Below are positions 1,858-58,624 of a DNA stretch of 64,000 nucleotides, piece after piece. This DNA comes from Salinigranum rubrum (GTDB lineage Archaea; Halobacteriota; Halobacteria; Halobacteriales; Haloferacaceae). The first letter of the stretch is position 1. The number at the start of each line of letters is the position of its first letter. The notes beneath the pieces were generated by a model. That model worked only from the letters and a program-made list of their open reading frames with translations, was not told the origin of the DNA and made no database searches. Both the position numbers and the translations under genes were made by a program. The stretch lies in assembly GCF_002906575.1 (NCBI RefSeq), contig NZ_CP026309.1:1736001-1800000 (forward strand), read 5' to 3'.

Positions 1858-1999
1858 GGCGGTGGCGCGTGACGGCACGCGGGCTTGCCGCGTGACGCAC
1901 GCGCGAGGGATGAGGGCCGGAGCCGCGAACGCAGTGAGCGGCGAGGACCGCAATCGGCTGGGGAGGGCGTGGCTGCGGTCCACCGCGCCCGTGTCCCGC
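1858..1999 (+). repeat. dispersed hairpin element, copy a (right half only)
   Basis: This non-coding stretch shares three blocks with the elements near 11.7, 49.0, 51.3 and 58.2 kb. They are a GGTGGCGC lead-in, a hairpin (stem CACGCGG/CCGCGTG at 1876-1882 and 1888-1894), and the core CGCGCGAGGGATGA followed by a right arm TCGGCTGGGGAGGGCGTGG ending CGCGCCCGTGT. I cannot find the matching left arm, so this copy looks truncated. It lies between the ABC permeases and the isoprenoid reductase. Function is unknown. Confidence 0.65.
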
Positions 2000-11670: not shown

Positions 11671-11850
11671 GCAGTCGCCAGGGCGGTGATGCCACACCCT
11701 CCCCAGCCGATTCCTTCGCTCAGTCACTCACTTCGTTCGTTCGGTCGCTCAGTCATCCCTCGCGCGGCGGTCCGACCGGAGTCGGACCGGCCGCGCCACC
11801 GCAGGGCCGGTCGGCGGACGGGAGTGAGCGAGTCCTGCGAGTCACCGACG
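11671..11850 (-). repeat. dispersed hairpin element, copy b (inverted)
   Basis: Read on the minus strand this matches the other copies. The right arm appears as TCGGCTGGGGAGGGTGTGG, the core as CGCGCGAGGGATGA and the lead-in as GGTGGCGCGG. The central hairpin has a 9-bp perfect stem CGGTCCGAC/GTCGGACCG at 11768-11776 and 11781-11789, with loop CGGA and outer pairs GCGCGG/CCGCGC. It lies in the roughly 490-nt gap between divergent genes. The remainder of that gap (11438-11670) shows no gene. Confidence 0.65.
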
Positions 11851-49003: not shown

Positions 49004-49282
49004 GCGCAGTACACGGGCGCGGTGGACCGCAGCCTCGCTCCTCCCCAACCGGTCGCTCGCGCACGGAGGCGCGAGCGGGCCCTCGCGCGCCGTTCGCTCG
49101 CAGGCTCACTCTTCCGCGCGCCGACCGCGACAGGCTGTGCGGTGCAGTGGCGCGTGAGTCGCGCGGTCCCTCCGCGCGACTCACGCGCGAGGGATGAGGA
49201 GCGGAAGGAGCGAACAGAGTGAGCGACTGAGCACCGCAGTCGGCTGGGGAGGACGTGGCTTCGTCGCGTCCGTGTACTGCGC
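49004..49282 (+). repeat. dispersed hairpin element, copy c (complete)
   Basis: The cleanest copy, 279 nt. It is bounded by a perfect 13-bp inverted terminal repeat: GCGCAGTACACGG at 49004-49016 and CCGTGTACTGCGC at 49270-49282. Left arm: GACCGCAGCCTC...CTCCCCAACCGGTCGC. Right arm: TCGGCTGGGGAGGACGTGG, its imperfect inverse. The central hairpin is perfect over 16 bp: CGCGTGAGTCGCGCGG at 49151-49166, loop TCCCT, CCGCGCGACTCACGCG at 49172-49187. The core CGCGCGAGGGATGA follows. No open reading frame is supported. It lies between the divergent SBDS and NifU-like genes. No target-site duplication is obvious. Confidence 0.8.
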
Positions 49283-51299: not shown

Positions 51300-51570
51300 A
51301 CCGCAGAGTGTACGGACACGGTGAACCGCAGCCTCACGCCACCCCAACCGGTCGCTCGCGGACGGAGCCGCGAGCGACCCCCCGCGCGTTCACTCGCTCC
51401 TTCGTCGCTCGTTCATCGCGCGCCGACCGCAACCGCAACAGTGCGGGGCGGTGGCGCGGCCGGTCCGACTTCGGTCGGACCGCCGCGCGAGGGGTGATGC
51501 GGCCGAGCGAGCGAAGGCGCGAATCGGCCGGGGAGGACGTGGTCTCACCGCGCCCGTGTACCGCAGGCGG
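51300..51570 (+). repeat. dispersed hairpin element, copy d (complete)
   Basis: About 270 nt, most similar to copy c: left arm GAACCGCAGCCTC...ACCCCAACCGGTCGCTCG and right arm TCGGCCGGGGAGGACGTGG ending CGCGCCCGTGTACCGC. The central hairpin is CGGTCCGAC (51461-51469), loop TTCG, GTCGGACCG (51474-51482), enlarged by outer pairs GCGCGG/CCGCGC. The core CGCGCGAGGGGTGA follows. It lies between divergent arfC and the glycosyltransferase gene, within a 611-nt gap that otherwise holds only the glycosyltransferase promoter. Confidence 0.78.
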
Positions 51571-58170: not shown

Positions 58171-58624
58171 ACGGTACACGGCCACGGTGTGACCACACCC
58201 ACCCTAACCGACTCGTTCACTCGCCCCTCGCGCGGTGTCGGGTTGGCGAGACCTGTGGTCTCGCTGCTTCCCGTTCGTTTCGTCGCCGGCGTTGTGCGCC
58301 GGCTTCCAGCGGAACCGTCGGTTCCGCGCGGCTCACGGGAACGCGGACGGAGCCGCGACCGTCACGCGCCACCGCGCCCCGATTACGGTCGGCGCGCGGG
58401 AGCGAGTGAACGAAGCGAACGAGCGGCGTGGGAGGTCTTCGTAGGGGAGCCGAACGAACGGCTCGAAGCGAACCCAGTCGCTTCGGTGGGCCGCGAGCGC
58501 CTCCGTGCGCGAGCTACTGGCGGACGAGTCAGCCAAGCCCTCCGTTCGTTCCCTCCGGTCTCTCACGGAGACACCGGCTGGGGAGGCGTAAGACAGCGGT
58601 CCATCGCGCCCGTGTGCCACGCGG
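58171..58624 (-). repeat. dispersed hairpin element, copy e (long, inverted)
   Basis: About 455 nt. Terminal arms are ACGGTACACGGCCACGG at the left and a right arm CCGGCTGGGGAGGCGTAAG ending CATCGCGCCCGTGTGCCAC. Internal blocks match the minus strand of copies c and d: CCCCTCGCGCGG, GCGCCACCGCGCC and GGTCGGCGCGCGGGAGCGAG. Two hairpins are visible: GCCGGCG/CGCCGGC (58285-58303) and GCGGAACC/GGTTCCGC with loop GTC (58309-58327). The extra length lies between the second hairpin and the right arm. No gene is supported from 58060 to 58749. Confidence 0.68.

Follow-up and report, generated by a model that had tools for sequence, protein, structure and literature searches.

The window, that is, the whole stretch of 64,000 nucleotides of the Salinigranum rubrum chromosome that was analysed, carries five copies of a non-coding element built from a unit of about 105 nt, here called the H-unit. 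The element forms a family with a two-hairpin fold maintained by compensatory change, its location is intergenic and mainly chromosomal, and it has been gained and lost between species. With a probability of about 0.5, the H-unit dimers are a REP/BIME-like but distinct haloarchaeal repeat family, acting at the DNA level and selected for its single-stranded fold. An RNA element ranks behind this reading, and a MITE behind both.

The sequence-only reading had described five related non-coding copies in the window, and all five found other copies in the same genome by blastn, with E-values from 5.7e-28 to 7.9e-53 (copy a 4.5e-28, to L008; b 5.7e-28; c 7.9e-53; d 1.7e-39; e 1.4e-52). The similarity exceeds that of shuffled DNA, as 250 first-order Markov shuffles of the five copies gave no blastn match at 1e-4. 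The positions first given for the arms, for the core CGCGCGAGGGATGA, and for the central hairpin were all confirmed. A high density across the genome had been predicted and is borne out by 78 matches to a covariance model of the unit (R1) at E<=0.01, and by 66 non-overlapping matches at E<1e-3. A blastn search with copy c finds dozens of sites on the 4.25-Mb chromosome contig, the best being L002 with approximately 80% identity over 272 bp. Copy e was not detected by R1, and is instead 80% identical to L074 across 277 bp and also matched by L011. The tail of the right unit of copy c is present in loci L002, L005, L010, and L013 as well. When folded and compared with dinucleotide shuffles, copy c has a z of -6.7 and L002 a z of -8.6. 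The copies are listed in the table.

Copies of the element and their parts in the 64-kb window (R1 matches in contig coordinates)
Feature	Position in window	Strand	Evidence and details
Copy a, single H-unit	1859..1966	+	R1 covariance-model match 1737859-1737966 +; tail to about 2005
Copy b, H-unit	11698..11802	-	R1 match 1747698-1747802 -; degenerate partner unit to about 11850; alternative tail 11671-11690
Copy c, whole head-to-head dimer (two H-units and matching tails)	49004..49282	.	Sequence, blastn, fold
Copy c, left H-unit (inverted) and its tail	49013..49134	-	Sequence reading; hairpin 49053-49077; CCTCCCCAACCGG at 49040-49052
Copy c, right H-unit	49144..49252	+	R1 match 1785144-1785252 +, E 5.6e-14; hairpin 1 49150-49188, GAGGGATGA, hairpin 2 about 49191-49240, TCGGCTGGGGAGG 49240-49252
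Copy c, lineage-specific tail of right unit	49253..49282	+	Complementary to left tail
Copy d, head-to-head dimer	51310..51565	.	Right unit 51448-51536 +; R1 match 1787448-1787536 +
Copy e, head-to-head dimer split by nested palindromic inserts	58171..58624	.	blastn

The H-unit has the order GCGGTGGCGCG-[hairpin 1]-CGCGCGAGGG-[hairpin 2]-TCGGCTGGGGAGG and is followed by a lineage-specific tail; sequence comparison shows that only the part of about 105 nt is common to other genera. The linkers between the hairpins are nearly invariant in the alignment of units (A1). In Salinigranum the left arm, read on the other strand, is a second H-unit, and the two units stand head-to-head. The apparent terminal inverted repeats of copies c and d are therefore the two tails. 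This reading is supported by other loci, where inverted R1 matches directly adjoin upright ones (e.g. 226597 + and 226485 -). What had been described as one long inverted-repeat element thus has real inverted arms, but they are two opposed copies of a shorter unit. Genera g4 and g12 share the head-to-head plan of Salinigranum with other tails. In family f7, which on the evidence of its best named plasmid match, in Natrinema, is probably from the Natrialbaceae, blastn matches begin at the first base of the unit and end approximately 138 bp on at the tail ...TTGCCACGATAGCAG. Here the units are single or paired tail-to-tail, and have crisp ends and no terminal inverted repeats.

Other modules are found near or within the units. 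Module B is approximately 110 nt, with the plan GGGTGGGACTGAAAGGGG-stem-GCAAGCAC...-stem'-GGGGCTTTC, in which the stem is swapped yet remains complementary. It frequently follows an H-unit at a distance of 20-50 bp downstream, and is also present on plasmids that have none (L051, L053, L054, L056, L090, L108, L112, L189, L191, L203, and the 3' end of the plasmid stretches described below). A palindromic module of approximately 65 nt (GGTCTTCG...GGCTCGAAGCGG..CCGCTTCGGTGG) is at 58430-58495 of the window and in L003, L004, L006, L021, L029, and L030. It is nested inside H-dimers at a joint that varies, and the L004 version has its own G-A-type hairpin. At L010, L018, L022, L026, and L104 the unit tail is directly adjoined on its outer side by short tandem repeats, about 20-35 bp in length, which suggests slippage near the hairpins.

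In S. rubrum all 66 non-overlapping units are on the chromosome contig, for which an even spread over the genome gives a chance of 3e-5. Three congeners have 18, 60, and 19 R1 matches. At E<1e-6, 65 of 151 haloarchaeal genomes are positive, in a patchy distribution over 27 of 59 genera. Among 199 genomes of the phylum there are 16 positives, every one of the same order, and no H-unit was found outside this haloarchaeal order. Unit numbers per genome from the class and phylum scans are lower bounds, and the searches favour the conserved linkers, so that degraded copies are under-counted. The f7-type unit is rare on plasmids, matching four in PLSDB, and has no phage match. The plasmid NZ_CP100462.1 of Salinigranum marinum has a match (G002:C2:89271-89522). 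A wider query adds 43 plasmids, where the matches examined are mostly to a different module. None of 4227 Rfam models matches the window, nor is there a match at E<=1 for eight element-bearing loci, and an Rfam family was rejected as the identity of the element. Searches of the open-access literature for the core strings of the H-unit returned unrelated matches only.

Plasmids of the Natrialbaceae have a further non-coding stretch of approximately 640 bp that is GC-rich and hairpin-rich (L199:1980-2611, L200:1980-2611, L201:1955-2609, L202:1975-2611). Its mean column identity is 87% across plasmids of Natrinema, Halopiger, and Natribaculum. It lies just upstream of a gene for a 'DNA-binding protein' of approximately 290 aa, with a weak OB-fold match in one, and has no Rfam match. 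A plasmid origin and a large structured RNA are both possible identities. At L199:4505-4700 an annotated transposase gene overlaps a near-threshold Rfam match to sot2652, which scores 59.6 bits against a cut-off of 61.

The fold of the unit is strictly conserved. In hairpin 2, tandem G-A steps alternate with two-base Watson-Crick blocks, usually beneath a GNA-triloop cap; the commonest loops are GGA (25), GAA (19), GCA (5), and GTA (5), and the stem-closing pair is T-A in 83, C-G in 23, and T-G in 11. Among 120 distinct copies, both pairs of the block are formed in 108 of 114, 96 of 102, and 83 of 87 cases at depths 0, 1, and 2, while the maxima from 2000 shuffles of the partners are 58, 52, and 53. 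Block pairing is thus approximately 95%, against 40-50% for shuffled partners. Across alignment A1, 94.1% of cells are paired versus 83.3% when shuffled, and the covariation score is 0.355 versus 0.163, with none of 500 shuffles scoring as high as the real alignment. Changes on both sides are seen in 52 cells versus 15.9, and sliding the partners gives sharply lower values. Kinship among the copies is not taken out by these shuffles, but the effect also appears at orthologous intergenic sites across species, where 38 blocks differ, of which 27 have changed in both arms with pairing kept and 5 have lost pairing; these pairs of sites are partly non-independent, and some of the change could stem from wholesale replacement of a unit by another copy. 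Hairpin 1 is variable in sequence and retains its pairing, with a mean of -27.3 kcal/mol versus -19.8 for half-swapped chimeras. That the sequence drifts while the folded shape is strictly preserved points to an undescribed chromosomal element that is recognised by shape.

The neighbours of the G-A steps are far from random, with YGAR found 471 times, YGAY 86, RGAR 77, and RGAY not at all. Under RNA parameters RGAY blocks are at least as stable as YGAR, and the DNA set barely separates them and has no YGAR preference. YGAR is the context in which DNA favours sheared G-A pairs. The hairpins of Streptomyces telomeres have GNA caps with sheared pairs (PMC7205883). The G-A context and the GNA caps therefore lean towards DNA, although they fall short of deciding the matter.

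The gene context was as first read for the copies of the window. From gene calls made by a simple codon model trained on the window, copies b (DUF5797 and enoyl-CoA hydratase), c (SBDS and NifU-like), and d (RibD_C and glycosyltransferase) are between divergent genes, and copy e is between convergent genes. Genome-wide, 44 of 44 S. rubrum loci are intergenic: 17 divergent, 10 convergent, 9 tandem on the same strand as the genes, and 8 tandem on the opposite strand. In other genera nearly all of 106 loci are intergenic, with 39 convergent, 22 divergent, 22 tandem same, and 23 tandem opposite; the unit usually starts 6-100 bp past a stop codon and is mostly at least 60 bp from a start codon. On the chromosome 35 of the 66 units are on the plus strand, showing no replication-strand bias. 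This context suits elements that are retained, or at least tolerated, in either orientation between genes better than it suits mRNA signals, although f7 prefers convergent sites.

The strongest competitor is a cis-acting RNA, in which the unit would be part of a neighbouring gene's transcript and would control 3' processing, stability, or termination through its fold. We consider this possible but doubtful. The single-strand structure is strong, as expected of such an RNA, and in hairpin 2 G.T (34) outnumbers A.C (10). It is also the reading best served by f7, where 24 of 42 loci are convergent and many units have their 5' ends 10-100 bp past a stop codon, an arrangement also seen in REP RNA elements and a counterpoint to action as DNA. 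Against it, the even split of the tandem loci outside Salinigranum is joined by genus g32, where 10 are opposite and 2 the same; 17 of 44 loci in Salinigranum are divergent; a U-tract is absent; and RGAY is never used in spite of its stability under RNA parameters. An mRNA 3' element in particular was rejected, tandem genes having no orientation bias.

The history of the sites bears on how the units spread. Empty sites in relatives had been proposed as a check, and three congeners (G001, G002, and G003) indeed lack copies b, c, and e at the orthologous positions; the intergenic region at the site of copy c is 85-123 bp in these species versus 552 in S. rubrum. A clean empty site or a target duplication was not seen, however, the flanks being too diverged at all comparable empty sites. 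Mobility would thus follow from presence and absence. Copy d has a shorter counterpart in the same orientation at the orthologous site of G003. Close species keep f7 units at the same site, and one site is occupied in three species and empty in others. Across genera, 3 of 6 orthologous sites are occupied versus 34 of 407 (8%) intergenic regions longer than 150 bp (binomial about 0.01, on a small sample). Units have been gained and lost between species, with some positions retained or reused, and given these partly conserved positions some copies may have a local job. Around copy a, the region at about 1730-2210 of the window is approximately 0.5 kb here and approximately 1.3 kb in three congeners, as if a gene-sized piece had been lost where the single unit sits.

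Such differences between congeners, the nested inserts of some copies, and the long inverted ends of the copies of the Salinigranum type and of g4 and g12 are what a classical MITE would show, mobilised by a DDE or other transposase acting in trans on its terminal inverted repeats. This is nonetheless improbable. The inverted repeats resolve into the tails of a dimer and f7 has none at its crisp ends, no transposon with H-unit tails was found in 1.2 Mb (28%) of the chromosome, and plasmid copies are rare. The best match of copy c differs by about a fifth, unlike the products of recent MITE bursts, and conserved linkers with compensated stems are unexpected in a dead insert. A Y1 (IS200/REP-type) transposase was also rejected as the motor. 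The single Y1 gene of the S. rubrum genome is away from H-units, with none in the flank examined, and several H-rich genomes lack the gene: G020 and G058 are listed without PF01797, and G040, G077, G110, G112, G142, and G156 are outside the set of genomes that carry it.

Multi-copy, independent small-RNA genes would account for the conserved fold and linkers and for the defined 5' edge; they are very unlikely, with a TATA-like box at only 4 of 39 units, no T5 run at any of the 39, flat A+T upstream, no terminator, and no Rfam family. Least likely of all is a mutational by-product, in which template switching keeps palindromes perfect and the fold arises without selection. Frequent slippage is suggested by the hairpins of both arms, by nested palindromes, and by short tandem repeats at the edges. 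Switching would, however, remove the G-A mismatches in favour of Watson-Crick pairs, yet more than 100 copies from different families keep these mismatches in register, and the linkers are nearly invariant. Of the alternatives first offered for the element, the structured one is strongly supported, as DNA or RNA, the MITE-like one is weakened, and the regulatory repeat lacks an orientation rule.

On the preferred reading, a REP/BIME-like element of DNA, each unit would fold as a single strand and be recognised in that form by one host factor, shared by all copies. A single trans-acting reader is suggested because the linkers stay constant and the stems co-vary. The strand would be exposed when the duplex opens at the fork or behind polymerase. 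Action as DNA is more likely than as RNA because there is no promoter, terminator, or strand preference relative to genes, because RGAY is avoided where RNA energy rules allow it, and because the caps resemble bacterial DNA telomeres. New copies would probably come from occasional DNA-level copying of units or dimers and not via IS200/REP transposases. A bolder proposal, which we put forward tentatively and think rather unlikely, is that these are chromosome-wide single-stranded DNA hairpins of alternating sheared G-A and Watson-Crick pairs, with one conserved protein reader, that serve replication, repair, or nucleoid structure. If true, dozens of sites in each genome would hold DNA elements of a class under selection for a non-canonical fold. 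To our knowledge few archaeal counterparts of the bacterial REP/BIME have been described. Hairpin 2 presents the repeating G-A/Watson-Crick pattern in living genomes, and together with the two linkers it is a concrete bait for the reader protein. Selection on non-B single-stranded DNA structure in a chromosome can thereby be asked about directly.

Of the known systems, the bacterial REPs are single palindromes of 20-40 bp with a GTAG or CGTC tag, the GTAG types being tied to RAYT transposases (PMC3733652). The H-units resemble REPs and BIMEs in being dispersed intergenic hairpins with large secondary structures that vary between relatives (PMC3733652), and in forming dimers, head-to-head in Salinigranum and tail-to-tail in f7. 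The intergenic location, at every S. rubrum locus and nearly all of those in other genera, is likewise shared. They differ in having two separate hairpins and a tail in place of a single short palindrome, a stem of tandem G-A steps, and no invariant GTAG or CGTC tetranucleotide in alignment A1, and differ from the GTAG types in being present in genomes without any Y1 transposase.

The H-units are like MITEs in being short, non-coding, and intergenic with apparent inverted ends; terminal inverted repeats are present in H-dimers and absent from single f7 units. Streptomyces telomeres (PMC7205883) share the GNA-triloop hairpins and sheared G-A pairing, and act as single-stranded DNA. Those are at chromosome ends, whereas the H-units are dispersed and repeat the G-A steps along the stem, and the resemblance is one of form only.

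The closest archaeal comparison is with the PATEs and SMRs of Haloquadratum walsbyi, which are short, palindrome-rich repeats free of a transposase (PMC3119063). SMR-A is approximately 110 bp, and SMRs are absent from the large plasmid of that species (PMC3119063). PATEs are related to IS605 ends, and SMR-A inserts into IS605/PATE palindromes (PMC3119063); the comparison of H-units with PATEs covered the presence of Y1 genes. SMRs are commonly more than 95% identical (PMC3119063), whereas H-units differ from one another by approximately 20%, the best match of copy c being approximately 80%. Unlike both, the H-units lie between genes and combine conserved linkers with a G-A stem.
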